DNA from: Leuctra nigra
Taxonomy: Eukaryota > Arthropoda > Insecta > Plecoptera > Leuctridae
Assembly: GCA_934045905.1 (NCBI GenBank)
Contig: OW203767.1
Coordinates: 23,191,073 to 23,255,072 of the forward strand
Reading direction: 5' to 3'
Length of the DNA: 64,000 nucleotides
Notes under the pieces: model-generated
Seen by the model: the letters and a program-made list of their open reading frames with translations, nothing else
Database searches by the model: none
What the model was told of the DNA's origin: nothing
Translations under genes and position numbers: made by a program
Shown: one piece after another, positions 2,871 to 58,424 of the stretch
How positions within the stretch are numbered: the first letter of the stretch is position 1
Layout of the letters: every line of letters starts with the position of its first letter

Positions 2871-3214
2871 TAACCCCCAAAAGGAGATTCTGGGATGATA
2901 AACTTATAATTTGGTATAATGAATACTGAATAAGTGGTCAGACTGCTCGAGTGGGGAGATACTCCCCTCCCCCCTTCCTACGCGCCTGCCTCGTACAGAG
3001 TGCTACCTTGGCTTCATGGTGCTACCGCTCTTGTTAGCCCGGCGGAGTGAAAAGTGGTTGGTTTCAACGTGCAGCCGTGAAATGAGTGATAAAACTCTCT
3101 TTTGAACGAGCCTCCTTGTCTTGCCCTGAGTTTTAGTTCTTCTGGCAACATCGTTGGGGTATCTGGTCTTCGATGTGTATGTTAACGTGTTTTATGCGTC
3201 TTCGATGTTGCTCG

Positions 3215-3220
3215 GATGAG
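3215..3220. repeat. Target-site duplication GATGAG (left)
   Basis: GATGAG lies immediately outside the left arm, and the same six bases lie immediately outside the right arm (17936-17941). Six-base duplications are characteristic of Polinton/Maverick integration. Confidence 0.85.
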
Positions 3221-3299
3221 AGTAGTAGATATATGCCGCTTCTGAAACACCGATTCCAGGGGCAAAAAGGGGCAAATCTCGGCCACGAGTGCGAGGCTG

Positions 3300-3650
3300 T
3301 TTTATGACGTCATACCTTGTTTTGGCGCCATTTTTAAACAAGTTTCCGGTTCTCATACTCTAGTCCGAGCTTATTTTAAACATTTCCGGCATTTTCCGCC
3401 CCTCCCTCACACCACTTTTCACCCTTTTTTCAAAATTTTTACGTCATACCTTCAATTATCATCGTTTGTAAATGTGTTTTCTGTTCCCTACTCTAGTCTG
3501 AGATTATTTTAATCATTTACCCAACTTTCCACTCCTCCCTTCAGTCTTTTTACCCCTTTTTTCATAATTTATGATGAATCACCTTGACTTGACGCAATTT
3601 TTTTTACATTTTTCTTGTTCCCACACTCTAGCATGATACTTTTTTAAAAC
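3300..3650 (+). repeat. Three subterminal ~135-bp repeats
   Basis: Three degenerate units start near 3305, 3441 and 3573. Each has an ACGTCATACCTT-like head, a TTCCC/TTCTC block, then ACTCTAG, then a TTTTAAA stretch. The same units lie inverted at the right end (about 17506-17856). The motif also recurs in the central spacer. Position and iteration suggest protein-binding sites for replication or integration; this is inference. Confidence 0.6.
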
Positions 3651-5233
3651 ATTTTCCCTGTGTGTATTCTTTGACAACTGTCACATACACTAACACAATG
3701 ACAATCTTATATATAAATGAAAAAAAAAAGGGATGAGAGCGGAATAATTATTTCAAGGCGCGAAATATATTTGAATTATCATCACAACACATGATTATAG
3801 AAAATTATAAGTTTTTGTCACTTTTTGAACCTTTTTGCAAAATTTCATCACTTCTTTTACTTTCTGTTACTTTCTTCAAGTTTTTGCGAGTTTTTTTCAA
3901 GAAAAACAAAAAAAAATATTGTTAGCATACACATAGAATGTTCTAGAAAATAATTTTTTAAAAGTGAAGACTGAATTTGATATTTTATCTATAAGAAAAA
4001 TTTGAATTATAATTTAATTACATTTTACGACATCCTATTAACTACATAAAAACGAATGTGCATATTTTTTGCATTGGTTTGCCACGTATCATCCTCTGGT
4101 GAATAAAAATCAATAGATATTTTAAACTGTTCTAGTCGGTTCTAGACTCACACTATACAAATATTTCAGTACGACGATCAAGAAAATAAGATCACTGCTA
4201 AGACAATGAGCGGGTGACGTTATCAATCAAAATGAAACGTATTGAAACTCGTTTAGATTAATAATTATAAGAGAGAAAATTGTGTCATCATTTTTAGAAG
4301 CAATAAACTAATGCTAGTTTTATTTAACACCGTCAGCATAATATAGATACAAATATAAAATGAACATGATAGTAATGAAATGTAGAAAACGTCAAAAAAT
4401 TAACATTCATATTCATACGAAACCATGAGCAGGATACCTATATACATTTATAAGAATATATCAAAATTTCAAACCAACGAGGATTTCTCTCCTGATCAAC
4501 ATCTTTTGTTTACACTTCTATTTTTCAGTATTTTCTTTATAATTGCTTCTTTTTTATTTACTTTTGTTTGTTTGTTTGTTTGTTTGTTTGTTTGTTTGTT
4601 TGTTTGCAGAAAAATTATTTGTTAAAATAAATATATCTTAAATTATAAAATTAGCAAAATACAGAATAAATGAAACCGACACACACTACTTTTTAAACAC
4701 TCTTAATCATTTTATTGTAACCCTAAATAAGAATTTAGTTCACACTCTGATGACGTAACATTACTGAACTATTACATCAGCAGAAATATATTTTATTCAA
4801 AATTAATAGCGGTTTTGTAGGAGAAATAGTTTATAATACTACATTTTAACTTTTATCATCAGTTGACATCGAGCATCTGGCAAGATTGTTTCGTAAGTGC
4901 ATGCATAAATAATAAATATTCATCAAATGTTGAAGTTAAGAAATATTTGTTTTATATAATTTAACATTTTAGTTTTGCTGTCAGTTGTCACCATGGCATC
5001 AGATCCGTTCGTTTCGATGCATCAGTACATTGACACCTAAGACGCAATTAATTGAACTTTGGACTCGACACTCGCGGAACAGAAGCTGCATTGTTTTATA
5101 TATTATTGTGATCGGATTGCTTGAATCAGTTGTCATTCGTCATCGGTCGCGTTCAGTTCGTTTACTCAGCAGAATATTTCGGCAGAAGTGTGTATAGTGT
5201 TTATGACATTGCGATCTTATTACCGGCGTCGCA

Positions 5234-8200
5234 ATGGAGAACATTAAAAATGTGAAATCTTTTGAGTGCGAGATTTGCTCTGCATCTTTTGGGAGGAAAT
5301 ATCATTTAATGAGACATAAACAATCAGTTCATGGAAATCAACATCCTACTGCATTGAATGTGTGTAATATTTGCGGTGTGATATTCTCTCGCGCGGACAA
5401 TTTAAAGACTCATGTTAAATTAGATCATGCATTCAAGTGTTTTATTTGTGATAAACAGTTTAACGCTAAAGTGAATTTATTCAACCATCTGAAAACTCAC
5501 AATCAAATCGGAAATGGAGAGACTGCTAATAAAAATATGTCGACACAAGAAGAAGAAACTCCATCAACATCAACCGATATTACCGACTCAGCATGCGATC
5601 AAAGTGATTGTGATTTTACTGAGGCTCTTGATTCCACTGTTAAAATCTACAAGTTCAAAGGGTGTTACATTCGAGATCCATATATGCACTATCAAGATGT
5701 GCTGAAGTTTCTCAGTGACCAACAAGAGATAGTCAAGACAAAATTAGACAAAGAATTATCAAGATTGAAAGCATTGAAATGGTTCATCTGCATTCAAGTT
5801 GAATTATCGCGGAAGTCTGGAGATGAAGAAATTGTAACAACTCCATATTTTAGAAGTAAATGCCAAATTTTACTTGAAGACACGTCAGAATTTGATGTAC
5901 AGTTCAATTTAGCATTTGCAACGATTTCAACCGCTTGTGGAAATTTTCAGCGTCAAGGAAGTGACTGGGTTGTGAACAAAGTGAACTTTTTAGAATTAAA
6001 AACAGCAAAGTATGTACCTCTCGCTGCAAGTAGCTACATGACACTCCCTGACAAACTGAAAAACACCAAAGCCATCGTGAATATCAAAAATCTCGATCAG
6101 AAGTGTTTACTGTGGGCAATACTTGCGCATCTACATCCTCAATCTAACAACCCACATCGAGTCTCAAATAACATCGAATACGAAGCAGAACTCAACATGA
6201 ATGGAATTGAGTATCCAGTAAAAATTCCAAAAATCGATATCTTTGAGAGACAAAACAACATCTCTGTGAATGTATATGGCTATGAAGACGGTGTTTACCC
6301 TCTTAGAATCACCAAAGTTGATTGTGTGCAACATGTGAATTTATTACTTTTGTCAAATGAAGAAAATAATCATTACTTTTTGATAAAAGATTTCAATCGT
6401 CTTCTTTACTCGCTAACAAAACACGGACACCGAGCATATTATTGTGTACGATGCTTGCACAGATTTTGCACTGAAAAACTGCTGAAATGTCATCATACTT
6501 TATGTGAGAAACATGAGCCTCAAAAAATCAAGATGCCAACAGCAGACAAGAACACCATGTCATACAAGGAAAAAGGATTTTCGTTCAAGACACCATACGT
6601 GATCTATGCAGATTTCGAGTGTTTTGTTCGACCAATCAGTGGTTGCGAGTCAAGTGACGTCACAACATCAACACGCAAAACAGCGCAACACGATCCGAGC
6701 GGCTATGCATTCATCATCGTGGACGAAGACGGCAAACCAACTGGACCACCTCAAGTCTATCGGGGAGAGAACGTCGTCGATACGTTTTTGAATGCTCTGC
6801 TTTTGGAAGAAGAGAAGCTTACTGCTAAAATGAAAGTGCAAATTCCCTTAGTTATGTCAAAAGAAGACCAGATTAATTTCAATCAAGCCACCTCATGTAA
6901 CATTTGTAACAAACCCCTTGGTGAAAAACGTGTACGCGACCACTCCCACATGACTGGTCGTTTCAGGGGTAGTGCACACAATGAGTGTAATATTAATTGT
7001 AAACAAGCAAAATTCATCCCAGTTGTGTTCCACAATCTTTGCGGATATGATTCTCATTTAATTATGCAAGGAATAGGTAAAATCAAAAATCAAAAAATTT
7101 CAGCAGTTCCAAATAACATGGAAAATTACAAGTCTTTCTCTTTAGGCAATTTGAGATTCATAGATTCGTTTCAGTTCATGAGCACATCATTGGAGTCATT
7201 AGTCAACAATCTTGCGAAAGATGGTTCAAGTAAATTCACTTTGTTGAAAGAATTTTTTGACTCAGATTCCCTCCCTCTGCTGTTACGCAAAGGGGTCTTC
7301 CCTTACAGCTATGTGGACTCGGAACACAAGCTGATGGAAGATTGCCTGCCCCCTAAGTCAGCATTTAGAAACGATCTCACTGGAGATGATATCTCCGATG
7401 CTGATTATGAGCACGCTCTAAAAGTCTGGAGGAAATTCAACATGTCAAACATTGGTGAATATCAAGATTTGTACATTACCACCGATATTCTTTTGTTAGC
7501 TGATGTGTTTGAGAGTTTCCGTAGTTTATGTTTAGAATACTATCACATCGATCCTTGTCATACAATCTCAGCTCCAGGATTAGCTTGGCAAAGTTTTTTG
7601 AAAATGACTGACGTTTGTTTAGAACTCATTACTGATCTAGATATGTACTTATTCATAGAGGAAGGAATCCGTGGAGGTGTAGCAATGATATCTCATCGTT
7701 TCTCTGAAGCAAACAATAAGTATATGGCTGAATTTGATCCTAGCAAACCATCAACATACATCGTGTATTTAGATTGTAACAATCTCTACGGGGTGGCAAT
7801 GAGTGATTTCTTACCTCATAAAGATTTCAAATGGCTGTCTTCAGAAGAAATTGAAGCAATTGACTTTGAGAACGTCCCCGATGACAACGATAAGGGTTAC
7901 TTTTTGGAGGTCAATATCACATATCCAGAGAGCATACATGAAAAACACGTAGATTACCCATTGTGTCCAGAAAAAATGTCAATCACACGTGATATGCTCT
8001 CTCCATACGCGATTCAGCTTTTAGATGATTTGAAAATGAACAATAGCAAAATTGAAAAGCTTACTCCAAATCTGAACAATAAAGAAAATTACATCATTCA
8101 TTACAAAAATTTAAAACAATGCACCTCTCTTGGTATGAAGTTAACAAAAGTACATCGAGTCATCGAATTCACACAGAGTAAGTGGTTGAAGCCATACATA

Positions 8201-8422
8201 GACTTTAACACAGCACAGCGAATCAAAGCACGGAATGAATTTGAGAAAGATTTTTTTAAGCTTATGAATAACGCTGTTTTTGGCAAAACAATGGAGAACG
8301 TAAGGAAGAGGGCGAATATCACTCTCACCAATGATAAAAAAACAACTCAGAAAACTAATTGCCTCTCCTGCGTTTCAAAATTTCGAAATCTTTTCAAACA
8401 GTCTTGTTGGTGTGGAGAGTAA
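5234..8422 (+). CDS. Zinc-finger family-B DNA polymerase, main frame (left arm)
   Basis: This 1062-codon frame has three C2H2 fingers at residues 9-90, a further C2H2-like unit near 402-425, and an exonuclease motif IYADFEC near 455. A zinc/HNH module like endonuclease VII follows at about 554-590 (CNICNKPLGEK, VRDHSH). Then come FHNLCGYD near 600, YITTD near 746, polymerase motif A YLDCNNLYG near 845 and motif B NNAVFG near 1012. This is the organisation of protein-primed PolB enzymes of Polintons and related virus-like elements. The catalytic motif C is not in this frame; it follows in an overlapping frame after a one-base shift at the A7 run 8336-8342. It should copy the element's own DNA in the nucleus, using a terminal protein; no terminal protein is seen. 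Confidence 0.85.
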   Translation: MENIKNVKSFECEICSASFGRKYHLMRHKQSVHGNQHPTALNVCNICGVIFSRADNLKTHVKLDHAFKCFICDKQFNAKVNLFNHLKTHNQIGNGETANKNMSTQEEETPSTSTDITDSACDQSDCDFTEALDSTVKIYKFKGCYIRDPYMHYQDVLKFLSDQQEIVKTKLDKELSRLKALKWFICIQVELSRKSGDEEIVTTPYFRSKCQILLEDTSEFDVQFNLAFATISTACGNFQRQGSDWVVNKVNFLELKTAKYVPLAASSYMTLPDKLKNTKAIVNIKNLDQKCLLWAILAHLHPQSNNPHRVSNNIEYEAELNMNGIEYPVKIPKIDIFERQNNISVNVYGYEDGVYPLRITKVDCVQHVNLLLLSNEENNHYFLIKDFNRLLYSLTKHGHRAYYCVRCLHRFCTEKLLKCHHTLCEKHEPQKIKMPTADKNTMSYKEKGFSFKTPYVIYADFECFVRPISGCESSDVTTSTRKTAQHDPSGYAFIIVDEDGKPTGPPQVYRGENVVDTFLNALLLEEEKLTAKMKVQIPLVMSKEDQINFNQATSCNICNKPLGEKRVRDHSHMTGRFRGSAHNECNINCKQAKFIPVVFHNLCGYDSHLIMQGIGKIKNQKISAVPNNMENYKSFSLGNLRFIDSFQFMSTSLESLVNNLAKDGSSKFTLLKEFFDSDSLPLLLRKGVFPYSYVDSEHKLMEDCLPPKSAFRNDLTGDDISDADYEHALKVWRKFNMSNIGEYQDLYITTDILLLADVFESFRSLCLEYYHIDPCHTISAPGLAWQSFLKMTDVCLELITDLDMYLFIEEGIRGGVAMISHRFSEANNKYMAEFDPSKPSTYIVYLDCNNLYGVAMSDFLPHKDFKWLSSEEIEAIDFENVPDDNDKGYFLEVNITYPESIHEKHVDYPLCPEKMSITRDMLSPYAIQLLDDLKMNNSKIEKLTPNLNNKENYIIHYKNLKQCTSLGMKLTKVHRVIEFTQSKWLKPYIDFNTAQRIKARNEFEKDFFKLMNNAVFGKTMENVRKRANITLTNDKKTTQKTNCLSCVSKFRNLFKQSCWCGE

Positions 8423-9035
8423 ACGTGCATCTCTTGTACTAGATCGACCGATCTATGCAGGATTTGCAATTCTTGATCTTAGCAAAACAGTTATGTATCA
8501 TTTCCACTATAACTATATCAAAAATAAATACAACGAGAAAGCTCGACTTTGTTTCACAGATACAGATTCATTGTGTTATCAAATTGAAACAGATGATTTG
8601 TATCAAGACATGGAAAAAGACATCAACCTTTTTGACACATCAAACATGTCAAGTGATCATTTTCTGTACAGTGATAAAAATAAAAAAGTTTTAGGCAAGT
8701 TCAAAGATGAGATGGATGGTCGAATTGTAAAAGAGTTTGTTGGATTAAGAGCAAAAATGTATAGTCTATTAGAAGCTGATGGAAGATGTAAAAAAGTAGG
8801 TAAGGGTATTATTAAACATGTGCTTAAAAAGAGAGTTAAACATCAAAACTATAAAGATTGTTTATTCAAGAGAAATGTACAGAGGGAAAAAATGCCTTCT
8901 ATAAGGAGTTTTAAACATGAAGTGTATACAATCAATCAAACCAAGATCACATTATCACCTTTTGATGACAAACGGTATTTGCTTGATGATGGTGTAAGCA
9001 CCTTGCCATATGGTCACTATAGAATTAAGAAGTAG
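8331..9035 (+). CDS. DNA polymerase C-terminal part in a shifted frame (left arm)
   Basis: This frame overlaps the main one by about 90 bases and continues the polymerase. It has motif C (CFTDTDSL) near residue 75, a palm/thumb segment with GKFKDE and VGLRAKMYSL, and a stop at 9033-9035. The first methionine is probably not a real start; the segment belongs to the preceding frame across the A7 run. Either a single-base insertion inactivates the enzyme or a +1 ribosomal shift joins the parts. The break is identical in both arms. Residue 174 or so is Tyr here and Ser in the other arm. Confidence 0.75.
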   Translation: MIKKQLRKLIASPAFQNFEIFSNSLVGVESKRASLVLDRPIYAGFAILDLSKTVMYHFHYNYIKNKYNEKARLCFTDTDSLCYQIETDDLYQDMEKDINLFDTSNMSSDHFLYSDKNKKVLGKFKDEMDGRIVKEFVGLRAKMYSLLEADGRCKKVGKGIIKHVLKKRVKHQNYKDCLFKRNVQREKMPSIRSFKHEVYTINQTKITLSPFDDKRYLLDDGVSTLPYGHYRIKK

Positions 9036-10221
9036 GAACATGTAATCTTTTTCATTAATTTTGTTTATTGTAGATGAAGCAAAATGGATAATTGTAAATA
9101 TTTCTGAAACTGAAATAATACTGTTATTAAATGTATATGACATTAAAAGTGGGTATCTTTAAAACATATCAATGTATTTATATTACCCCAATTCCTTCTC
9201 TTCCCATCCTATTCAAGTAAGTGTTATTTTCTTAAAATTAGTTTACGTGTTCACCGCTTAAAAATGAAAATCAATACATTGGATTATTTGATTGTTGTAA
9301 ATTATTTGAGTGAGAAAAAAATAATCACAATATTATGTTTTACAGATATGTATAGCAGTATAATGAACGACTTGTGTTTGTTTTAAACAGCAATCGAAAT
9401 AAAATTACACAATAATTATGTAGATACACGAATGAAAAAATTTAAAGAAGTACAATCACAGTCAAATAAAATTTAAACTATTCTACGAATGAAAATAGAC
9501 ATTTCTTGTATTCAACAAAATATTAGCTGGTGAGAGTCATTTGTTTATTCCCTCCTCAAAAAATATAAATCATCTAGAACATTCTATTCAAGTTTGTCTT
9601 AATTTCTCGGTATTTCTTTTACTTGGTCGTTTTTTTTTTATTCATAAATGAAATCTATTTTCAGCTAATAGCAAATTTGTCTCTTCCCAAAATTCAAAAT
9701 CATACATTGAAAGATTGGAGAGTATAAATAATTCAGTTCCATTTGTATTATGAAATTGATAAATGTAATTAATAAAATAAAGAATCAAAGTTACCTTCAA
9801 GTTTACCGTAGGTATATATTTTTTTCTATAATCATATAAAAATTTGCTATGGAAGAATAATATCATACTGAAGTTTAGAATACATTGATTCGAATATACT
9901 TTGCTATATGCTTCATTTACTCATAGAGATATATTACTGAATCTCTCAGATTTACTTTAAATATATTTTCATGATTATTAAGTCAATTCATTTTAAAAAC
10001 ATTGTCCATCATAAAAAATAGTTAGAAACGAGAATCTATTCTAAATTTTCTTCATGTTAATTAGTTCAACAAATTTATATAATACATTTGCGGAAAATTC
10101 CATTCAAAACTGAAGGGTGATAAGAACAGAATCTGTTTTTTCATGAAGTGGGTAATAATTTTGTTTTTAATACCTATTCAGAATAAGGATAATTTACAAT
10201 TCATATTCAATAAAAAATAAT

Positions 10222-10933
10222 GTGTTTTTATAGATGGAAAAAAAAATCTTTATTTAATTAAATCTCATAATAATTAATATTATTGCTAATTTCATGCTTA
10301 TAATTTTCTTCTAACAACTCATTATTTTTAAGACACAACCAATTTGAACAATGTCAAAAAAATTCTCAAATCAGTGGCTTTTATTGATTGACTTGAAAGT
10401 CCAAGGTCTTGTAATTTGGTGTTATGTTACACATCCGTTCTGATTAATTGTGATTCAAGTGCTTCGCTAGTAGACGAGTATAAAAATAAACCCATACGAT
10501 GTTATCTAGAATTTGAAATATGAGAAAAATGTTTGGAAAGAAACACATGGACACTCGAAAAATGATTTAACAAATGATAAATAAAACAGTCAAAAATTAC
10601 AAAATAAAAATCTTGCATTAGAGTACAACATGGGTATAAAGACCCCTCAAATGTTGACTGTTTAACAGACTCGTAAAAAATAATGGTCAAATTTGTAAAA
10701 CAGTCAAAAATTAAAAAAAAAATCGTACTCGAGTGCTACATCAGTATAAAAATAGCCAAAAAATCAAAAATTCAAATCTCGCACTAGAGTGTGGCATTGG
10801 TATAAAAATTTTCAAAAATTTTAAAATTAAAATCTCGCACTAGAGAGTGACAGCTCACACTAGAGTGTGACATTGGTAAAAAGACCCCCTCAAATGTAGG
10901 CTGTGTTAGGTTTGGTACAAATACGTGAACGTG
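10222..10933. repeat. Unique central spacer with iterated motif
   Basis: This is the only asymmetric part of the element. Its right half (about 10575-10905) holds four or five imperfect repeats with ACTAGAGTG followed by CATTGGTATAAA-like sequence: near 10619, 10728, 10783, 10838 and 10859. The same ACTAGAGT core occurs in the subterminal repeats, in the orientation of the right arm. No gene is visible; a 62-codon frame on the minus strand across the repeats looks fortuitous. Confidence 0.7.
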
Positions 10934-12120
10934 ATTATTTTTTATTGAATATGAATTGTAAATTATCCTTATTCTGAATAGGTATTAAAAACAAAATTAT
11001 TACCCACTTCATGAAAAAACAGATTCTGTTCTTATCACCCTTCAGTTTTGAATGGAATTTTCCGCAAATGTATTATATAAATTTGTTGAACTAATTAACA
11101 TGAAGAAAATTTAGAATAGATTCTCGTTTCTAACTATTTTTTATGATGGACAATGTTTTTAAAATGAATTGACTTAATAATCATGAAAATATATTTAAAG
11201 TAAATCTGAGAGATTCAGTAATATATCTCTATGAGTAAATGAAGCATATAGCAAAGTATATTCGAATCAATGTATTCTAAACTTCAGTATGATATTATTC
11301 TTCCATAGCAAATTTTTATATGATTATAGAAAAAAATATATACCTACGGTAAACTTGAAGGTAACTTTGATTCTTTATTTTATTAATTACATTTATCAAT
11401 TTCATAATACAAATGGAACTGAATTATTTATACTCTCCAATCTTTCAATGTATGATTTTGAATTTTGGGAAGAGACAAATTTGCTATTAGCTGAAAATAG
11501 ATTTCATTTATGAATAAAAAAAAAAACGACCAAGTAAAAGAAATACCGAGAAATTAAGACAAACTTGAATAGAATGTTCTAGATGATTTATATTTTTTGA
11601 GGAGGGAATAAACAAATGACTCTCACCAGCTAATATTTTGTTGAATACAAGAAATGTCTATTTTCATTCGTAGAATAGTTTAAATTTTATTTGACTGTGA
11701 TTGTACTTCTTTAAATTTTTTCATTCGTGTATCTACATAATTATTGTGTAATTTTATTTCGATTGCTGTTTAAAACAAACACAAGTCGTTCATTATACTG
11801 CTATACATATCTGTAAAACATAATATTGTGATTATTTTTTTCTCACTCAAATAATTTACAACAATCAAATAATCCAATGTATTGATTTTCATTTTTAAGC
11901 GGTGAACACGTAAACTAATTTTAAGAAAATAACACTTACTTGAATAGGATGGGAAGAGAAGGAATTGGGGTAATATAAATACATTGATATGTTTTAAAGA
12001 TACCCACTTTTAATGTCATATACATTTAATAACAGTATTATTTCAGTTTCAGAAATATTTACAATTATCCATTTTGCTTCATCTACAATAAACAAAATTA
12101 ATGAAAAAGATTACATGTTC

Positions 12121-12825
12121 CTACTTCTTAATTCTATAGTGACCATATGGCAAGGTGCTTACACCATCATCAAGCAAATACCGTTTGTCATCAAAAGGTG
12201 ATAATGTGATCTTGGTTTGATTGATTGTATACACTTCATGTTTAAAACTCCTTATAGAAGGCATTTTTTCCCTCTGTACATTTCTCTTGAATAAACAATC
12301 TTTAGAGTTTTGATGTTTAACTCTCTTTTTAAGCACATGTTTAATAATACCCTTACCTACTTTTTTACATCTTCCATCAGCTTCTAATAGACTATACATT
12401 TTTGCTCTTAATCCAACAAACTCTTTTACAATTCGACCATCCATCTCATCTTTGAACTTGCCTAAAACTTTTTTATTTTTATCACTGTACAGAAAATGAT
12501 CACTTGACATGTTTGATGTGTCAAAAAGGTTGATGTCTTTTTCCATGTCTTGATACAAATCATCTGTTTCAATTTGATAACACAATGAATCTGTATCTGT
12601 GAAACAAAGTCGAGCTTTCTCGTTGTATTTATTTTTGATATAGTTATAGTGGAAATGATACATAACTGTTTTGCTAAGATCAAGAATTGCAAATCCTGCA
12701 TAGATCGGTCGATCTAGTACAAGAGATGCACGTTTACTCTCCACACCAACAAGACTGTTTGAAAAGATTTCGAAATTTTGAAACGCAGGAGAGGCAATTA
12801 GTTTTCTGAGTTGTTTTTTTATCAT
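12121..12825 (-). CDS. DNA polymerase C-terminal part in a shifted frame (right arm)
   Basis: Mirror copy of the left-arm segment with motif C TDTDSL and the same stop. One replacement was seen (TCT serine at 12304-12306 instead of TAT tyrosine). It overlaps the main frame at the A7/T7 run 12814-12820. Same two readings: inactivating insertion or +1 frameshift. Confidence 0.75.
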   Translation of the reverse strand: MIKKQLRKLIASPAFQNFEIFSNSLVGVESKRASLVLDRPIYAGFAILDLSKTVMYHFHYNYIKNKYNEKARLCFTDTDSLCYQIETDDLYQDMEKDINLFDTSNMSSDHFLYSDKNKKVLGKFKDEMDGRIVKEFVGLRAKMYSLLEADGRCKKVGKGIIKHVLKKRVKHQNSKDCLFKRNVQREKMPSIRSFKHEVYTINQTKITLSPFDDKRYLLDDGVSTLPYGHYRIKK

Positions 12826-15800
12826 TGGTGAGAGTGATATTCGCCCTCTTCCTTACGTTCTCCATTGTTTTGCCAAAAACAGCGTTATTCATAAGCTTAA
12901 AAAAATCTTTCTCAAATTCATTCCGTGCTTTGATTCGCTGTGCTGTGTTAAAGTCTATGTATGGCTTCAACCACTTACTCTGTGTGAATTCGATGACTCG
13001 ATGTACTTTTGTTAACTTCATACCAAGAGAGGTGCATTGTTTTAAATTTTTGTAATGAATGATGTAATTTTCTTTATTGTTCAGATTTGGAGTAAGCTTT
13101 TCAATTTTGCTATTGTTCATTTTCAAATCATCTAAAAGCTGAATCGCGTATGGAGAGAGCATATCACGTGTGATTGACATTTTTTCTGGACACAATGGGT
13201 AATCTACGTGTTTTTCATGTATGCTCTCTGGATATGTGATATTGACCTCCAAAAAGTAACCCTTATCGTTGTCATCGGGGACGTTCTCAAAGTCAATTGC
13301 TTCAATTTCTTCTGAAGACAGCCATTTGAAATCTTTATGAGGTAAGAAATCACTCATTGCCACCCCGTAGAGATTGTTACAATCTAAATACACGATGTAT
13401 GTTGATGGTTTGCTAGGATCAAATTCAGCCATATACTTATTGTTTGCTTCAGAGAAACGATGAGATATCATTGCTACACCTCCACGGATTCCTTCCTCTA
13501 TGAATAAGTACATATCTAGATCAGTAATGAGTTCTAAACAAACGTCAGTCATTTTCAAAAAACTTTGCCAAGCTAATCCTGGAGCTGAGATTGTATGACA
13601 AGGATCGATGTGATAGTATTCTAAACATAAACTACGGAAACTCTCAAACACATCAGCTAACAAAAGAATATCGGTGGTAATGTACAAATCTTGATATTCA
13701 CCAATGTTTGACATGTTGAATTTCCTCCAGACTTTTAGAGCGTGCTCATAATCAGCATCGGAGATATCATCTCCAGTGAGATCGTTTCTAAATGCTGACT
13801 TAGGGGGCAGGCAATCTTCCATCAGCTTGTGTTCCGAGTCCACATAGCTGTAAGGGAAGACCCCTTTGCGTAACAGCAGAGGGAGGGAATCTGAGTCAAA
13901 AAATTCTTTCAACAAAGTGAATTTACTTGAACCATCTTTCGCAAGATTGTTGACTAATGACTCCAATGATGTGCTCATGAACTGAAACGAATCTATGAAT
14001 CTCAAATTGCCTAAAGAGAAAGACTTGTAATTTTCCATGTTATTTGGAACTGCTGAAATTTTTTGATTTTTGATTTTACCTATTCCTTGCATAATTAAAT
14101 GAGAATCATATCCGCAAAGATTGTGGAACACAACTGGGATGAATTTTGCTTGTTTACAATTAATATTACACTCATTGTGTGCACTACCCCTGAAACGACC
14201 AGTCATGTGGGAGTGGTCGCGTACACGTTTTTCACCAAGGGGTTTGTTACAAATGTTACATGAGGTGGCTTGATTGAAATTAATCTGGTCTTCTTTTGAC
14301 ATAACTAAGGGAATTTGCACTTTCATTTTAGCAGTAAGCTTCTCTTCTTCCAAAAGCAGAGCATTCAAAAACGTATCGACGACGTTCTCTCCCCGATAGA
14401 CTTGAGGTGGTCCAGTTGGTTTGCCGTCTTCGTCCACGATGATGAATGCATAGCCGCTCGGATCGTGTTGCGCTGTTTTGCGTGTTGATGTTGTGACGTC
14501 ACTTGACTCGCAACCACTGATTGGTCGAACAAAACACTCGAAATCTGCATAGATCACGTATGGTGTCTTGAACGAAAATCCTTTTTCCTTGTATGACATG
14601 GTGTTCTTGTCTGCTGTTGGCATCTTGATTTTTTGAGGCTCATGTTTCTCACATAAAGTATGATGACATTTCAGCAGTTTTTCAGTGCAAAATCTGTGCA
14701 AGCATCGTACACAATAATATGCTCGGTGTCCGTGTTTTGTTAGCGAGTAAAGAAGACGATTGAAATCTTTTATCAAAAAGTAATGATTATTTTCTTCATT
14801 TGACAAAAGTAATAAATTCACATGTTGCACACAATCAACTTTGGTGATTCTAAGAGGGTAAACACCGTCTTCATAGCCATATACATTCACAGAGATGTTG
14901 TTTTGTCTCTCAAAGATATCGATTTTTGGAATTTTTACTGGATACTCAATTCCATTCATGTTGAGTTCTGCTTCGTATTCGATGTTATTTGAGACTCGAT
15001 GTGGGTTGTTAGATTGAGGATGTAGATGCGCAAGTATTGCCCACAGTAAACACTTCTGATCGAGATTTTTGATATTCACGATGGCTTTGGTGTTTTTCAG
15101 TTTGTCAGGGAGTGTCATGTAGCTACTTGCAGCGAGAGGTACATACTTTGCTGTTTTTAATTCTAAAAAGTTCACTTTGTTCACAACCCAGTCACTTCCT
15201 TGACGCTGAAAATTTCCACAAGCGGTTGAAATCGTTGCAAATGCTAAATTGAACTGTACATCAAATTCTGACGTGTCTTCAAGTAAAATTTGGCATTTAC
15301 TTCTAAAATATGGAGTTGTTACAATTTCTTCATCTCCAGACTTCCGCGATAATTCAACTTGAATGCAGATGAACCATTTCAATGCTTTCAATCTTGATAA
15401 TTCTTTGTCTAATTTTGTCTTGACTATCTCTTGTTGGTCACTGAGAAACTTCAGCACATCTTGATAGTGCATATATGGATCTCGAATGTAACACCCTTTG
15501 AACTTGTAGATTTTAACAGTGGAATCAAGAGCCTCAGTAAAATCACAATCACTTTGATCGCATGCTGAGTCGGTAATATCGGTTGATGTTGATGGAGTTT
15601 CTTCTTCTTGTGTCGACATATTTTTATTAGCAGTCTCTCCATTTCCGATTTGATTGTGAGTTTTCAGATGGTTGAATAAATTCACTTTAGCGTTAAACTG
15701 TTTATCACAAATAAAACACTTGAATGCATGATCTAATTTAACATGAGTCTTTAAATTGTCCGCGCGAGAGAATATCACACCGCAAATATTACACACATTC

Positions 15801-15922
15801 AATGCAGTAGGATGTTGATTTCCATGAACTGATTGTTTATGTCTCATTAAATGATATTTCCTCCCAAAAGATGCAGAGCAAATCTCGCACTCAAAAGATT
15901 TCACATTTTTAATGTTCTCCAT
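12734..15922 (-). CDS. Zinc-finger family-B DNA polymerase, main frame (right arm)
   Basis: Same length (1062 codons) and the same protein sequence as the left-arm frame: three N-terminal C2H2 fingers, exonuclease motifs, endonuclease-VII-like zinc module, and motifs A and B. The two polymerase genes point towards the centre of the element (left copy plus strand, right copy minus strand). The start ATG follows the same 5' leader as in the left arm, so both copies would have the same promoter. Confidence 0.85.
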   Translation of the reverse strand: MENIKNVKSFECEICSASFGRKYHLMRHKQSVHGNQHPTALNVCNICGVIFSRADNLKTHVKLDHAFKCFICDKQFNAKVNLFNHLKTHNQIGNGETANKNMSTQEEETPSTSTDITDSACDQSDCDFTEALDSTVKIYKFKGCYIRDPYMHYQDVLKFLSDQQEIVKTKLDKELSRLKALKWFICIQVELSRKSGDEEIVTTPYFRSKCQILLEDTSEFDVQFNLAFATISTACGNFQRQGSDWVVNKVNFLELKTAKYVPLAASSYMTLPDKLKNTKAIVNIKNLDQKCLLWAILAHLHPQSNNPHRVSNNIEYEAELNMNGIEYPVKIPKIDIFERQNNISVNVYGYEDGVYPLRITKVDCVQHVNLLLLSNEENNHYFLIKDFNRLLYSLTKHGHRAYYCVRCLHRFCTEKLLKCHHTLCEKHEPQKIKMPTADKNTMSYKEKGFSFKTPYVIYADFECFVRPISGCESSDVTTSTRKTAQHDPSGYAFIIVDEDGKPTGPPQVYRGENVVDTFLNALLLEEEKLTAKMKVQIPLVMSKEDQINFNQATSCNICNKPLGEKRVRDHSHMTGRFRGSAHNECNINCKQAKFIPVVFHNLCGYDSHLIMQGIGKIKNQKISAVPNNMENYKSFSLGNLRFIDSFQFMSTSLESLVNNLAKDGSSKFTLLKEFFDSDSLPLLLRKGVFPYSYVDSEHKLMEDCLPPKSAFRNDLTGDDISDADYEHALKVWRKFNMSNIGEYQDLYITTDILLLADVFESFRSLCLEYYHIDPCHTISAPGLAWQSFLKMTDVCLELITDLDMYLFIEEGIRGGVAMISHRFSEANNKYMAEFDPSKPSTYIVYLDCNNLYGVAMSDFLPHKDFKWLSSEEIEAIDFENVPDDNDKGYFLEVNITYPESIHEKHVDYPLCPEKMSITRDMLSPYAIQLLDDLKMNNSKIEKLTPNLNNKENYIIHYKNLKQCTSLGMKLTKVHRVIEFTQSKWLKPYIDFNTAQRIKARNEFEKDFFKLMNNAVFGKTMENVRKRANITLTNDKKTTQKTNCLSCVSKFRNLFKQSCWCGE

Positions 15923-17935
15923 TGCGACGCCGGTAATAAGATCGCAATGTCATAAACACTATACACACTTCTGCCGAAATATTCTGCTGAGTAAACGAAC
16001 TGAACGCGACCGATGACGAATGACAACTGATTCAAGCAATCCGATCACAATAATATATAAAACAATGCAGCTTCTGTTCCGCGAGTGTCGAGTCCAAAGT
16101 TCAATTAATTGCGTCTTAGGTGTCAATGTACTGATGCATCGAAACGAACGGATCTGATGCCATGGTGACAACTGACAGCAAAACTAAAATGTTAAATTAT
16201 ATAAAACAAATATTTCTTAACTTCAACATTTGATGAATATTTATTATTTATGCATGCACTTACGAAACAATCTTGCCAGATGCTCGATGTCAACTGATGA
16301 TAAAAGTTAAAATGTAGTATTATAAACTATTTCTCCTACAAAACCGCTATTAATTTTGAATAAAATATATTTCTGCTGATGTAATAGTTCAGTAATGTTA
16401 CGTCATCAGAGTGTGAACTAAATTCTTATTTAGGGTTACAATAAAATGATTAAGAGTGTTTAAAAAGTAGTGTGTGTCGGTTTCATTTATTCTGTATTTT
16501 GCTAATTTTATAATTTAAGATATATTTATTTTAACAAATAATTTTTCTGCAAACAAACAAACAAACAAACAAACAAACAAACAAACAAACAAAAGTAAAT
16601 AAAAAAGAAGCAATTATAAAGAAAATACTGAAAAATAGAAGTGTAAACAAAAGATGTTGATCAGGAGAGAAATCCTCGTTGGTTTGAAATTTTGATATAT
16701 TCTTATAAATGTATATAGGTATCCTGCTCATGGTTTCGTATGAATATGAATGTTAATTTTTTGACGTTTTCTACATTTCATTACTATCATGTTCATTTTA
16801 TATTTGTATCTATATTATGCTGACGGTGTTAAATAAAACTAGCATTAGTTTATTGCTTCTAAAAATGATGACACAATTTTCTCTCTTATAATTATTAATC
16901 TAAACGAGTTTCAATACGTTTCATTTTGATTGATAACGTCACCCGCTCATTGTCTTAGCAGTGATCTTATTTTCTTGATCGTCGTACTGAAATATTTGTA
17001 TAGTGTGAGTCTAGAACCGACTAGAACAGTTTAAAATATCTATTGATTTTTATTCACCAGAGGATGATACGTGGCAAACCAATGCAAAAAATATGCACAT
17101 TCGTTTTTATGTAGTTAATAGGATGTCGTAAAATGTAATTAAATTATAATTCAAATTTTTCTTATAGATAAAATATCAAATTCAGTCTTCACTTTTAAAA
17201 AATTATTTTCTAGAACATTCTATGTGTATGCTAACAATATTTTTTTTTGTTTTTCTTGAAAAAAACTCGCAAAAACTTGAAGAAAGTAACAGAAAGTAAA
17301 AGAAGTGATGAAATTTTGCAAAAAGGTTCAAAAAGTGACAAAAACTTATAATTTTCTATAATCATGTGTTGTGATGATAATTCAAATATATTTCGCGCCT
17401 TGAAATAATTATTCCGCTCTCATCCCTTTTTTTTTTCATTTATATATAAGATTGTCATTGTGTTAGTGTATGTGACAGTTGTCAAAGAATACACACAGGG
17501 AAAATGTTTTAAAAAAGTATCATGCTAGAGTGTGGGAACAAGAAAAATGTAAAAAAAATTGCGTCAAGTCAAGGTGATTCATCATAAATTATGAAAAAAG
17601 GGGTAAAAAGACTGAAGGGAGGAGTGGAAAGTTGGGTAAATGATTAAAATAATCTCAGACTAGAGTAGGGAACAGAAAACACATTTACAAACGATGATAA
17701 TTGAAGGTATGACGTAAAAATTTTGAAAAAAGGGTATAAAGTGGTGTGAGGGAGGGGCGGAAAATGCCGGAAATGTTTAAAATAAGCTCGGACTAGAGTA
17801 TGAGAACCGGAAACTTGTTTAAAAATGGCGCCAAAACAAGGTATGACGTCATAAAACAGCCTCGCACTCGTGGCCGAGATTTGCCCCTTTTTGCCCCTGG
17901 AATCGGTGTTTCAGAAGCGGCATATATCTACTACT

Positions 17936-17941
17936 GATGAG
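17936..17941. repeat. Target-site duplication GATGAG (right)
   Basis: Exact match to 3215-3220, directly after the arm terminus ATCTACTACT. Confidence 0.85.
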
Positions 17942-31545: not shown

Positions 31546-33890
31546 TAATCTAGTGGAGCGGTCGCTCCACCCAGCCAAGTCGTACCGTACACTCACACTC
31601 ACTCAACATACCGTAAATGACTAATAAACTGAGGAGCAGACCAACCACTTTTACTGTAAGCAACAACATGGCATTTTCGGCCTACTGGATCTTAAAATTG
31701 GAAAATCTCACATTGTTGCGATATATCTTAATTTCGAGCTATGGCCCACCCCACTACATATACCAAATTAGGGAACAATATGTTATGCCGTTTGCGAGCT
31801 AGAGGGCCGAGAAAACAGTGAAATTACACCACTTTCTGATTCTGATGATATCAGGAAACGTTGCTATCACCGCCACAGCCTAAACGGCTAAACCGATCGA
31901 CCTAAAACTTTTACCACATATGCACTTTTGGCGTCTGATGATACCTTGCCTCTTGTGATTTTTTGTGCCGCCATTTTTAAACCGGAAGTGACGTCATAAC
32001 TCAAAAACGTCTGGACCGATTAGAACGAAATTAGCGCCATTCGATTTAGATGGTCATCTTTATGAAGTATCAATAAAAAAAATATTATTTTCTTATTTTC
32101 TAAACCGGAAGTGACGTCATAAATACGCAATATTTAACTTATTTCAACAAATTATACTTAAAATACGTACATAATTAACTTACATTGTAACATAGACAAT
32201 ACAATTTATATATTCAAGGTAGCAGTGTTCTCGGCCGCCATTCCTGAAACCGGAAGTGACGTCATATATCTAAAACGCCTGTACCGATTGCAACTGAACT
32301 AGCTCCTGCGTATTCATTCTGCTATTTATTTGAAAAATCAATTGTGAAAAATGAATAAATAAATTAATGGTACCGGAAATGGCGGCAGGAACCACTAAAT
32401 GAAACCGGAAGTGACGTCATATATTACAAACGGCATGACCGATTTTACGGAAATATAGGGATTAGGAATTCAGATGGTCGTTCATGAAGGTATCAACTAG
32501 ATAAAACTAGATTGTTTTCTTATTACCTATACCGGAATTCGGCCGCTATTTCAAAACCGGAAGTGACGTCATGTATCGAAAACGGCTGGATCGATTATAA
32601 CGAAACTTAAGCTATTCTTCTTGGATAATCATTGTCATCTTATACCAAACGCAACTTTTCATAGTAACCAAATCGGTTGAGGCGTATTTTTTTAAAGAAA
32701 TTAGTCCCTGCTCGGACATGTGCTACAAGCTGTATGTATAAACTAACAAAAGAAGTGATATCCCAGAAAAAACACTCCGTGTAAAAATACCAGCCAAGTC
32801 TCTTTAACTATAAAAAAAAATAGAAGAAATCTAAAAATTCAGCACTGAAAAGGAGTGATATCAAAAAAGGAGCCAAGTCAACGAATTTTCCAAATTTTAA
32901 TCGTACCATTGAAATAAAAATATCAACCCCCGAGAAATACTTAAAAAAAGGACTTGGCGCATCGTTTTTTTAAAGACATTTTTCTATTCTTAAGCTTAAG
33001 CCACTCACATACTACGTAGTTCAGAAATGCCTAGAAAAATTGGGACAAAACTTTCAAATTAAATATTGAACATTCTGTAAAATATTTTAAATTTAAATAT
33101 AAGTACGCAAAGAAACAATAGCATTGTCTTACAAGCAATAAATACAGAACAGTTGTGTTTGTGATTGGTAGGTACCTATAGTTTTGTGGGTACATCAACA
33201 TACCTACTACAGCATTATACTTGGAACCTTCTCGCCGTGTAATTAATTGCTATTAATTAACATTTTATACCAAAAAAATTCATAAATTACATAACGTATT
33301 ACTTTAGATAAAAATCTAGTCAGTAATTATTTGAGCAGCATGGCTCAGTGCACTAGTCACTTATACAAATCTCATTGACGGCCTTCTTGTAATGAGCGCT
33401 TTCGCTATTTCCCTCAGTCACGATATTGAGAAGTATGATTGATTAATATGACCCTAGAAATAGTGGCAATAACGAATAGACTAGGCCGCTTCCGTTTATT
33501 CGTTATTCGTTTATCCGTTTATTTCCTCTGAATATTGACAAAATACCAAAACTGCCAGTAGGTAAGAGTACTAGTTATATTAAAACGTAGTATGATTCGT
33601 CGATAATGAATGTGATATACTCAGGAAAATATACTTGTAGAGTTCTTCCTATACTTTTAGGATAGAAAAGTGTCTTTAAAAAAACGATGCGCCAAGTCCT
33701 TTTTTTAAGTATTTCTCGGGGGTTGATATTTTTATTTCAATGGTACGATTAAAATTTGGAAAATTCGTTGACTTGGCTCCTTTTTTGATATCACTCCTTT
33801 TCAGTGCTGAATTTTTAGATTTCTTCTATTTTTTTTTATAGTTAAAGAGACTTGGCTGTTTTTTTTTACACGGAGTGTTTTTTCTGGGAT
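31546..33890 (+). mobile_element. GGAGCG-family repeat, copy C, filling an intron
   Basis: Begins TAGTGGAGCGGTCGCTCCAC; the body has six or so AAACCGGAAGTGACGTCAT units; the foldback tail has arms 32760-32988 and 33662-33890. It occupies 2.34 of 2.54 kb of the receptor intron 31359-33899 and stops 8 bp from the splice donor. Confidence 0.7.
32760..33890. repeat. Foldback tail of copy C
   Basis: Two nearly perfect complementary arms of about 229 bp around a 673-bp loop that contains unrelated sequence, including a possible tRNA-like head (CATGGCTCAGTGCACTAG) near 33341. Outer ends are ATCCCAGAAAAAACACTC. Confidence 0.85.
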
Positions 33891-54835: not shown

Positions 54836-56576
54836 TCATGTCATATCAACATCATTATTCCACAATCATCAAGTCATTATAATTCACCGATGTAAATAAT
54901 CCTTGCTGTAAAGACGTCGAAACACATTATAAAATGTATTCACTGTCCATCTAAATGTACGGAAAGGCTCCATTTTCATGGATGATATTTATTAATTTTT
55001 CCAATCTTTGTTTCGTCAAATGTCCATTAGCTCTTTTATCCGTCGTTGATTTTATTCAAATTAAAAGTAAATTTAGTCAAAACGCATACGTTTCCCAAGA
55101 AATGGAACCTTTTTGTGTGCATTCTATTCCATTCTCTCATGTGTCATTTTGTCAATCACGAAACACTCAGTCAACCTGTCAAAAAAACTCATCAAAACCA
55201 ATTCTCAATTTCAAACAAAAACCTTGAGAAAAAATCTGCATGGCGAACCACACAAAGAAAATTCTCAATCATCCAGGTTTGTTTGGCCGGATGCCGCGAC
55301 GTTGAACGTCGAGACGAGTGCTTTTAGCCGCGTCACTGATCCTTACAGCCTCCTTGAGATCTGACGCACTCAGAGAGCGCTCTCATCTCTGTGATTGGCA
55401 TGTTGATCAAGTGAGAGTATAAACGCAGCTTTCGATCTCTGGATTTGTACATGTGTTGCACACTTGTTTGGGAAGAGATCTGTGTGGATTGGTTTTTGAG
55501 GTGTTGCTGTATTTATTGAGATTTCCGGGGACTTGTGTTTTAGAAGCGGCTCTTTAATAGAGGATTGCTTCGGGGATGTTGGAGATAATTATAAATTGTT
55601 ACCAAAGTGTTGACTTTGAGGTGGATTGAGATTCCCTGAGGAGTAAATTACGTGGGTGAATAGTTTGAATGACGACGATGTAAACACGGTTTTCGTGAAA
55701 TTTCAACAAATTTGAAAAGTTATACGAATTTCTAGAAGATCGTTTCGCCAGACATTACAATTATTTTACGTGATAGAAGAGAAACTTCGAAATAAAGCAA
55801 AAGTCCTCATAAAGCTCCGAAAAACAACCCTGAACGTGTATTTAAAAATGTTAGAATAAAAATATTGCAACTGAATGAAAAACGAACTTTGAAGTGATGT
55901 CGAAAATAATTTGGCCATGATGTTTGGTAATTTTTCTTACCATATTTTCCATATGGTACGGAACACAAAATCTATTAATATCGATTTTTTTCCGATTGCT
56001 CATGACGAGTGAAAACTAAGACATGATTTTACTGAAATTTTTCAAAGAGATATTATGCAGTTTTTCTCAACGTTCGATTGCTCATAGCTCATGTCTTTTT
56101 TCATTTTATTTTATTTCAATCGTTAGTAGAAAATACTGTTCCTAATTGATAATAACATTAAATAAGTATAATGACAAAGATAATGTCTTCGAAAACGCCA
56201 CGCGAAGAAGGTGCTTCATATTGTTTTGCATGTTAATATATACACGCGTGAAAGTTGCTGCTCCACAATAGACATAAGGAAAATGATATCTGTAATAATT
56301 TTGTCTTTCAATTTCTTTGAATAAATTTGACAAATATTTCAAAACAATAAAACAAATTATTGATGCTGATTTCAATAATATCTCATTAATTTTTTTTTTT
56401 AAATTGGCTACATGGCCAATTATTGTGTAAAAAAGCACAGATGAAGATCTAAGCTATAACTCCTATCGATCAAGTACCAGATAAGATATCAAGTAGCTTT
56501 AACAAATATACTAATGCGTCGTTATCTAATCTTCACTTTCACATTTGTTCGTTCGTGTGTTTTAGTTAGTTACAAA
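54836..56576. other. Intergenic stretch with a possible promoter
   Basis: At about 55280-55450 the DNA is less AT-rich and has GAGAGTATAAACGCAG (TATA-like, 55422-55437). It could be a plus-strand promoter and 5' UTR, but no exon follows that I can support. The rest is AT-rich. Confidence 0.35.
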
Positions 56577-57053
56577 ATGGCATTAACTCAGAGTGAATCA
56601 CTAGTTTTGAGAGCAGCAACAGCAGTAACATGTACTGAATATTGTGGGTCTGAACGCATTGTTAAGAAATACTCGATAGATTGGAATCTTGACAGGAAAG
56701 TCGACAGAGATTCAACAATCATAAGATCACCTTCGTTTTCTCTTGGCAAGTTGGAAGCATGTTTCGACATTATGACTACGGAAGAAGTTAAGGGCACAAA
56801 GCGAAGGATGTTTTTCCTCCAGATTTTGTCGAGAGTTGATTCTATGCCAATGGGGAAAATGTCACTGAAGTACACTTCTACAGGTCAAATTGCTCATCAA
56901 ATATTGCTCGACTCAAGCACGTTTGTGCAAGATCGCGGTTTTGGAGTTATCGTACAGTTAGGATTTGATGATCGTATCAAGCAAGTATTTAATTGTACAA
57001 TCTGGCATATTGATGTTGACAAAAGGCTGCAACCGCCACCAGTTCACCTTCTT
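56577..57053 (+). CDS. MATH-BTB protein 1, exon 1 (MATH domain)
   Basis: Start at MALTQSESL, matching the paralogue's MATTQSESL; a further in-frame ATG 21 codons upstream is probably not used. The exon encodes a MATH-type substrate-binding fold with conserved spots KKYSIDWNLDRKV, LGKLEACFDI, FLQILS and TIWHIDVDKR. It ends in phase 0 before GTGAGT. With exons 57954-58253, 58425-58567 and 58651-58753 it gives about 340 residues, against 374 for human SPOP. By family, the product should be a nuclear or cytosolic substrate adaptor of Cullin-3 ubiquitin ligase. MATH similarity to SPOP is low; substrate unknown. Confidence 0.85.
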
Positions 57054-57097
57054 GTGAGTATTCCCATGCACTCATAATTTAATTTAGTTAATACATT

Positions 57098-57890
57098 CTT
57101 GAAGTAGAAGAATTTAAATATCTGGGAAGCATCGTTACCAGTGAGGCAAGAATGGATAGAGAAATTGATAGCAGAATTAAACTTGCAAACGGGTTTTACC
57201 AGCAGGTTCGAAAGCTTCTATGGAATGAACATTTTCTTCGGAGGATAAAGTTATTACTATATAATTTATATTATATCCCAATATTATCTTATGGATCGGT
57301 GACTTGGACGATGGGCTGGAAAGAGAGGAGTGAAGTACAGGCAGCGGAGATGAAGTTTGTGAGAAGTACTTTGGGAGTGAGTAAACTGGACAAGATTCGT
57401 AGTAGAGTGTTAAGAAAAGAATTGGGTGTTGAGAGATTGAACTTCAAAATTGGAAGAGCGAGGCTGCAGTGGTTCGAACAGTTAAGCAAAATGGATAAGG
57501 ACAGAATACCTAAGAAAGCATAGGATAAGGAGCATTTGAAAAGGAGGGTGGGTAGACCAAGGCAAAGATGGAAAGAACAGATAAGATTGGATGTTGAAGA
57601 GAGGGGGCAGAAATATGATATGGTTGAGCATGAAAGATGGTGGGAGGATGAAGAACGATGGCAGTTTTTCGTGAATAGTAAAGAAGAAGAAGATGATGAC
57701 GAAGAAGAAGATGATGACAAAGAAGAAGCAGAAAAAAAATAGGAGGAGGAAGCAGAATAAAAAGAATACTCTGTTTTATATAGAAACGTCTGGACTGACA
57801 TACCGGCGTTCCTAATGATTGTGTAACTTGCCCTTGAAATATGTAATCTTTACCTGATGGTTTAAATTGGAAAAGGAAATAAAGATATTA
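57098..57890 (+). mobile_element. 5'-truncated LINE 3' end in intron 1
   Basis: The plus frame reads EVEEFKYLGSIVTSEARMD, then YIPILSYGSVTWTM and KRRVGRPRQRWKEQ, the C-terminal segment of an RTE-like endonuclease/reverse-transcriptase protein. There is a single in-frame TAG at 57521. It then runs into a GAAGAAGATGATGAC-rich stretch and an AT-rich tail. Inserted in sense orientation in intron 1 of MATH-BTB gene 1. Confidence 0.75.
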
Positions 57891-57953
57891 TTTAATTATC
57901 AAAAACAGAATTAAAATTTAATTGTATTACAACCAATTGTATTTTCTTTTCAG

Positions 57954-58253
57954 ACCCTGTCATCAAACTTCCTCCAACTACTAAAGAACGAGGAGTTCTC
58001 TGACGTCACACTGAAAGTTGACGGTGAAGCTCTGAAAGTACACAAGCTCATCTTATCAAGTCGCAGTCCTGTCTTCGCCGCCATGTTGAAAGCTGACATG
58101 GCGGAGTCTAGGAGCGGAGAGATCGTGATCCAGGACATCGAGGTGGCGGTGATGAAGATGTTGTTGAGTTTCATCTACTCAGGACGAGTGAAGGAGGACG
58201 ACGAACCTCTTGACGAGGACACGGCGATGAAGCTGCTCAGAGCGGCGGACAAG
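57954..58253 (+). CDS. MATH-BTB protein 1, exon 2 (BTB)
   Basis: Acceptor TTTTCTTTTCAG, 100 codons in phase 0, donor GTAAAG. Encodes the BTB/POZ core: EEFSDVTLKVDG, HKLILSSRSPVFAAML, MLLSFIYSGRV. This mediates dimerisation and Cullin-3 binding. The last 196 bases (from about 58058) differ from paralogue 2 at only three sites. Confidence 0.9.
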
Positions 58254-58424
58254 GTAAAGTTCGAACAAGTCAGTGACATCTAGTCAAACATGTCCATACA
58301 GGTCGGTCAGTTTGGGAAATATCAAAAGAATAACCACCGCCAACTTTATGCCACTAACCTTATTAGAAATTCCACTTCATTGTATTTGAATCTTGGAGTA
58401 ATAAGTTGTATGATTCCTCCACAG

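Follow-up and report, generated by a model that had tools for sequence, protein, structure and literature searches.

How animal Maverick/Polinton elements are copied, and whether they form particles at all, has so far largely been inferred from their genes. In other protein-primed systems, the adenovirus SYREC genome and other left-end inverted-duplication genomes consist of a protein-primed end doubled head to head and are helper-dependent. A yeast hairpin plasmid derived from the killer plasmid pGKL was reportedly described by Kikuchi et al. in 1985 as a protein-primed linear replicon in the form of a perfect hairpin or palindrome. Vertebrate Mavericks have (AGT)2 ends, 6-bp target-site duplications and terminal repeats of 46-1,447 bp (PMC8097293). 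Very long inverted repeats are found in the Foldback and Galileo transposable elements of Drosophila (PMC3573991), while bidnaviruses combine a Polinton-derived PolB and Polinton-like termini with a parvovirus-derived helicase and capsid on segmented single-stranded genomes (PMC4061559). The element described here lies in a 64,000-nucleotide stretch (the window) of the genome of the plecopteran Leuctra nigra (assembly GCA_934045905.1, contig OW203767.1, positions 23,191,073 to 23,255,072 of the forward strand). It was found to be a giant palindrome with Maverick-type ends and a PolB gene in each arm, and to belong to a family of palindromic copies. This family shows that a transposable element can have a palindrome of more than 15 kb as its regular form and be present in many copies in that state, and its unusual form gives a hint of how virus-derived jumping elements are copied.

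Structure of the palindromic element

The palindromic element occupies positions 3221-17935 of the window (14,715 bp), with GATGAG abutting each end. Its arms, at 3221-10221 (7,001 bp) and 10934-17935 (7,002 bp), are identical in 6,998 of 7,002 alignment columns, the differences amounting to three events: one two-base difference, one substitution and one 1-nt change in the length of a T run. The termini read AGTAGTAG...CTACTACT, and no further base is gained by extending either the inverted repeat or the GATGAG duplication. By arithmetic from the base composition of the window, a random 6-bp match at fixed positions would be expected about 4 times in 10,000. The arms enclose a middle of 712 bp (10222-10933) which is single-copy in the window. 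The original prediction had described near-perfect arms of about 7.0 kb, AG...CT termini and an exact GATGAG pair, and alignment of the arms bore out both the coordinates and the claim. The features of the element are as follows.

3215..3220, no strand: left copy of the target-site duplication, GATGAG (6 bp)
3221..10221, plus strand: left arm, 7,001 bp, beginning with AGTAGTAG
3301..3648, plus strand: subterminal repeats with a period of 133-135 bp; ACTCTAGTNCGAG at 3357-3369 and 3490-3502
5234..8422, plus strand: PolB frame 1, with C2H2 fingers, exonuclease and polymerase motifs A and B (motifs by eye)
8304..9035, plus strand: PolB frame 2, with polymerase motif C (by eye); the break in the gene falls between frames 1 and 2
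10222..10933, no strand: centre, 712 bp, single-copy here; holds the subterminal motif in inverted orientation
10934..17935, minus strand: right arm, 7,002 bp, terminating in CTACTACT
12121..12852, minus strand: PolB frame 2 of the right arm
12734..15922, minus strand: PolB frame 1 of the right arm
17936..17941, no strand: right copy of the 6-bp target-site duplication, GATGAG

The (AGT)n end motif and terminal inverted repeats by which Mavericks/Polintons are recognized are both present. Each arm holds one long gene, PolB, which in the window copy is split into two frames in both arms; no other ATG-started open reading frame (ORF) of at least 120 aa was found in the element. The palindrome is composed of a Maverick-type polymerase end (terminus, 2-kb leader and inward-reading PolB) doubled head to head around a short asymmetric centre.

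Palindromic copies in the genome

Copies are named here by contig labels (e.g., C7, C10) in the 536-Mb assembly of 144 contigs which contains the window. The assembly was searched with the element end (best 40 of 255 candidates scored) and with a 1-kb piece of PolB (best 40 of 103 candidates scored), and the resulting counts are lower bounds. The element end recurs as inverted pairs. For the PolB piece, at least 41 matches were obtained. Twenty of these were at 100% (rounded) and comprised nine inverted pairs, the arm C12c, whose partner goes into an N gap, and a truncated arm, C101; the 21 matches at 72-96% comprised six further inverted pairs and nine unpaired matches. Eight other near-identical pairs, C12c, C101, a diverged pair (d1) and, as two stretches, C7 were fetched. 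All eight pairs were palindromic along the arm (C8 and C1 with central deletions), which with the window copy gives nine near-identical two-ended copies. The palindromic unit has multiplied recently.

The 712-bp middle was found in both arms of eight of the ten near-identical copies with a detectable centre (35 of 35 candidates scored), where the two occurrences flank a short asymmetric loop; the window copy and C8 have it once only. Since the other copies carry the 712 bp twice, the full form measures about 15.42-15.43 kb and the window copy is short by some 0.7 kb at its centre. As a type form the window copy holds for the palindromic arrangement and not for the length, being a shortened member. 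Other shorter copies are C8 (14,557 bp), C1 (15,064 bp) and d1 (12,011 bp). At C4a, 704 bp of the left end are repeated in tandem inside the duplication (C4:5099703-5100429), a pattern suggestive of re-initiation at the terminus or of a template switch there.

Perfect and mutually different 6-bp duplications were identified at 11 of the 13 two-ended PolB palindromes (GATGAG, AAGATT, AGTGAA, GTTGTG, TAGGCC, TGTATG, CTCTAT, CTAGTC, GCGCTA, GGTCAG and TTTGTT). Counting all two-ended palindromes checked, non-coding ones included, 12 of 14 were perfect, one had five of six bases (the old copy d1, where 5/6 match) and one had none. These duplications confirm that the whole palindrome is a single integrated unit, as had been proposed from the window. 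At C6:34699129-34708655, Maverick-like ends with mirrored flanks and no direct duplication were observed; they sit within a larger inverted duplication which includes the flanks (99.7% over 691 bp).

A sister subfamily has a length of 15.94 kb; C7 was fetched, with C4d and C9 known by their ends only. C7 is 91.8% identical to the window arm, and its own palindrome is 99.5% identical over 8,078 columns. The central loops of the window family and C7 are homologous (they align with a score of 74, the best of 1000 shuffles reaching 31), and because this loop is common to both subfamilies the palindrome is older than the split between them. The palindromic form is inherited. The original prediction had called for a search of the same genome and, as its second reading, suggested a separate lineage that is normally palindromic; the other copies proved to be palindromic with different 6-bp duplications, and the nine near-identical copies, the sister subfamily and a non-coding kind agree with that reading.

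No intact single-armed copy was seen among the copies examined, with several single PolB matches unfetched. The unfetched loci are those at C4 6.2 Mb, C9 21.2 Mb and C12 3.2-3.5 Mb and three of the four at 72-73%. C3, which has inverted ends but a single PolB, derives from a palindrome by internal deletion. A relative on C5 (75% at the nucleotide level) has a decayed two-frame PolB, a capsid-like scrap only, and no inverted partner within the next 9 kb. Among the open-licence titles and abstract starts listed, no palindromic Polinton was described. The 27 contigs from the PolB alignment (2 viral and 25 from bacterial or archaeal genome bins) held no long palindrome, which says little because 20 of the 27 are shorter than 10 kb. 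In the viral contigs, a single-protein PolB scan gave no confirmed match and a search for the terminal pattern gave 0 matches.

The PolB gene

Pfam analysis of the first PolB piece gave C2H2 fingers and a sub-threshold Endonuclease_7 match. A protein search returned 82 matches, including PF03175 members and annotated DNA polymerases, and the named homologues were from clam, spiders, Hydra and bugs. The structure model of the first piece (42 aligned sequences) had a mean predicted local distance difference test score (pLDDT) of 80.4. Compared with the PDB, Phi29 polymerase accounted for nine of nine matches at E<=0.001, including its terminal-protein complex; among viral models a densovirus-labelled PolB came top, with adintovirus PolB at ranks 4 and 6. 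Cys291 and His380 in the N-terminal region are invariant across the 42-sequence alignment, which is what an OTU-like protease domain in the first piece would predict. An OTU-like domain is reported at the N terminus of adintovirus PolB (PMC11071296), and a terminal-protein role has been proposed for the N-terminal part of Polinton PolB (PMC4061559).

The PolB frame, broken in both window arms, is open over 1,275 codons in all 18 other near-identical arms fetched, and in C7 it is open over 1,326 codons in both arms. Between the subfamilies, 1,214 of 1,275 residues are identical, with 0.024 non-synonymous (dN) and 0.183 synonymous (dS) substitutions per site (dN/dS 0.129). PolB is under purifying selection. 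At aligned sites, the nucleotide differences between the window subfamily and its sister amount to 10.4% in the leader and 4.9% in the PolB gene.

Related Mavericks in the same genome

C10 carries a 15,425-bp Maverick (29268910-29284334) flanked by the duplication ATAACG; its inverted repeats are about 0.8 kb long and 97% identical. By Pfam it encodes an rve integrase, which has a sub-threshold chromodomain match, as well as a BIR domain, and seven other ORFs were without a Pfam match. Its capsid-, protease- and ATPase-like ORFs were named by eye and have tblastn matches in Polinton-like contigs among L001-L027. The BIR (inhibitor of apoptosis) protein is at 3203-3496 on the minus strand of the fetched stretch. 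A second Maverick-ended element, seen by its ends only, lies on C8 (16,160 bp, duplication TTGGAC).

The C2H2-PolB of the C10 Maverick shares 53% and 66% identity with that of the palindromes in two stretches; as in each arm of the palindrome, its start is about 2 kb away from the terminus and its direction is inward. A tree built from 72 PolB pieces places the palindromes first with the decayed C5 relative (0.996) and next with the C10 Maverick (0.999), whose PolB is the nearest from a complete element. In the palindromes the motif ACTCTAGTNCGAG (up to 2 mismatches) starts at +137 and +270/272; the corresponding starts in the ends of the C10 Maverick are +129 and +262/253. It reappears inverted near the palindrome centre, and there are three matches in 46 kb of flank.

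When the C10 ORFs were used in tblastn, the window element showed no rve integrase, capsid, packaging ATPase or protease gene. The C10 integrase and eight other C10 ORFs had no match in the window element or in the C11a or C7 stretches at E<=0.01, and two pieces of the C10 ATPase had none at E<=1 in the same search. The label Polinton-like, given to the element in the original prediction, is supported by PolB, the ends and the 6-bp duplication, and does not extend to the integrase and capsid genes of a complete Polinton. An ordinary complete Polinton was rejected as an identity on the same ground. A Foldback/Galileo type was also rejected, as PolB is the only gene seen by ORF and its pieces match no transposase family.

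Joint change of the two arms

Within near-identical copies, the arms differ by 0-7 substitutions. In seven of the nine, this is less than the smallest difference to another copy; the two exceptions are C12a, with 0 substitutions to C12c, and C1, with 5 between its arms and 3 to C4c. Among private substitutions, 22 are present in both arms of one copy and 23 in a single arm. In the tree, 9 of 11 copies have their two arms as a monophyletic pair (support 0.71-1.0). The arms of C12a do not form such a pair, because C12c nests with them, and for C7 no judgement is possible, since one of its arms is the root. Older copies have diverged arms, with 35 substitutions in 3,548 sites for d1 and, for C7, 21 mismatched positions plus 13 gap openings across 8,078 columns. 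As the arms of young copies are alike and those of older copies have diverged, the arms look identical at birth and diverge later. Replication through a self-complementary single strand predicts arms which are alike at birth.

Non-coding palindromes

The central sequence was also found in mid-palindrome at loci where no PolB was found. One such palindrome lies on C4 at about 10.96-10.98 Mb; over 5.5 kb, its two arms are 99.96% identical. Another, on C11 (4175419-4191540), has 16,122 bp and the duplication GAGAAA; its left arm, palindromic centre and right end were seen (the inner right arm was not), and the left arm matches the C4 non-coding arms. No ORF of 120 aa was detected in three 8-kb stretches of these palindromes. 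Because non-coding palindromes exist, mobility seemingly does not need PolB in cis.

The full lengths are 15.42-15.43 kb for the window subfamily, 15.94 kb for the sister subfamily and 16.12 kb for the non-coding kind, and the Maverick-ended elements of the same genome measure 15.43 kb (with a near-full gene set) and 16.16 kb. A possible but doubtful reading is that Maverick viruses have the palindromes as satellites, which would be kept at the length of a virion genome. A doubled half-genome would then fill the helper capsid and supply two identical protein-priming ends, and a gene-less palindrome would likewise be kept at virion genome size. Against this stand the deleted copies of 12.0, 14.6, 14.7 and 15.1 kb, and the length comparison is based on two measured Maverick-ended elements only. 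The short copies may have been deleted after insertion. If true, a satellite nature would give sequence-level evidence for linear replication and packaging of animal Mavericks, which could then be parasitized by satellites.

Proposed propagation of the palindrome and alternative explanations

It is quite probable that the palindromes form a stable Maverick/Polinton-derived lineage with the giant palindrome as its normal form, replicated by its own PolB and integrated by a helper integrase. Replication would take place on a linear molecule, with protein primers at both of its identical ends. Being self-complementary, the displaced strand could fold into a 7.7-kb hairpin whose single duplex end would again serve as an origin, and in each cycle both arms would be templated from one strand. 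Integrase, and possibly capsid, may be supplied in trans by complete Mavericks of the same genome with shared terminal sequences. The palindrome centre folds as single-stranded DNA with a z-score of -6.9, as expected of an inverted repeat. A snap-back at the polymerase end of a Maverick probably founded the lineage, in the manner of the adenovirus SYREC genomes and the yeast hairpin plasmid. The original prediction had offered an integrated snap-back or head-to-head product as its first reading; this survives as the likely founding event, while the other copies exclude it as the whole story. A heritable palindromic lineage with jointly changing arms, a selected PolB and no integrase or capsid genes found makes three ideas testable, namely replication through a self-complementary strand, helper integration in trans and a packaging-like size limit.

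Several observations weigh against such a lineage with its own polymerase. Pfam recognized no polymerase family in either PolB piece and gave no match at all for the second, and the Phi29 match is weak by template-modelling score (TM-score 0.23-0.27 by query). The non-coding stretch after PolB differs by 4.5% between subfamilies, as little as the gene, with 418 gap columns. As this stretch differs no more than the gene (4.9%), only the leader shows a contrast at the nucleotide level, and the argument for selection rests on dN/dS and not on a coding/non-coding contrast. The PolB of the C10 Maverick is itself in two overlapping frames. The arms of C1 differ by 5 substitutions and the closest pair, C1-C4c, by 3. 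At C12a, a matching duplication is missing. The likeness of the arms might also come in part from gene conversion in the chromosome. Finally, the hairpin, free DNA, terminal protein and helper action are proposals drawn from the sequence.

Palindromes are hard to assemble, C12c meets an N gap, and the missing duplication of C12a might likewise point to an artefact of assembly. The right flank of C12a and the left flank of C12c are both ATAATA, 64 kb apart with an N gap between (C12:22428548-22492346), which is probably a scaffolding problem at the palindrome. A misassembly is nevertheless very unlikely, to the point of being hardly credible, because the flanks are unrelated and the structure recurs elsewhere with other flanks and duplications (locus-specific at 11 of 13 PolB palindromes); the copies also have mutations of their own. 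Inverted duplication in place after insertion was ruled out by the outermost position of the duplications and the centre common to the copies. The broken PolB in both window arms would suit a one-off accident, in which the end of an ordinary Maverick was doubled once, by snap-back or as a head-to-head dimer, and the defective product was integrated here as a dead genome; protein-primed replicons are known to give rise to palindromic genomes of a defective kind (adenovirus SYREC, the yeast hairpin plasmid). Such an accident is highly improbable in view of the many palindromic copies with a common centre, the selection on PolB and the intact PolB in other near-identical copies.

Snap-back is plausibly frequent in protein-primed replication, and palindromes could have formed repeatedly from a single-armed Maverick relative without the state being inherited. 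Several single PolB matches exist, five of these loci having been left unfetched. The homologous central loop in both PolB subfamilies speaks against recurrent formation, as do the singles that were fetched (the deleted palindrome C3, the truncated arm C101 and the decayed PolB of C5), and it is considered improbable. The arms of chromosomal palindromes are known to convert each other, and the private mutations common to both arms would also be expected if gene conversion after insertion, and not replication from one strand, kept the arms alike. With the diverged arms of the older copies d1 and C7 and the 23 private substitutions confined to one arm, conversion as the main cause appears rather unlikely.

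Other features of the window

A small inverted repeat with 211-bp arms (98%) is present at 32783-32993 and 33656-33866, with 662 bp between the arms. Repeated paralogous ORFs at 56460-61448 appear MATH/BTB-like by eye, two of them without a Pfam match. For an NK3-type homeobox ORF the nearest named matches were cockroach and stick-insect proteins (the best matches being unnamed), which points to a probable insect host and led to the rejection of a spider, first suggested by the BTB-like ORFs and by spider proteins among the PolB matches. A search with a G-protein-coupled receptor-like ORF gave two weak matches. Rfam and tRNA scans of the 64-kb window found nothing.

Comparison with known systems

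Foldback and Galileo have another class of transposase, that of Galileo belonging to the P superfamily, whereas the ends and duplications found here are Maverick-like. Bidnaviruses share a Polinton-type PolB and termini and a reduced Polinton gene set with the palindromes; they differ in their parvovirus-derived genes and segmented genomes, and the available text of PMC4061559 describes no palindrome. The likeness to Mavericks/Polintons, polintoviruses and adintoviruses includes the PolB family, AGT-repeat ends, 6-bp duplications and a total length of about 15-16 kb, as well as a PolB which lies near one end and reads inward, as in C10. However, the palindrome takes up nearly the entire element, with arms of 7.7 kb, whereas the terminal repeats of vertebrate Mavericks measure 46-1,447 bp (PMC8097293). 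There are also two PolB copies, and integrase, capsid, ATPase and protease genes were not found. The yeast hairpin plasmid differs in being cytoplasmic and non-integrated and is not a Maverick. SYREC and its like are defective genomes of the laboratory, whereas the palindromes of L. nigra are a multi-copy, integrated and selected lineage with a polymerase of its own.

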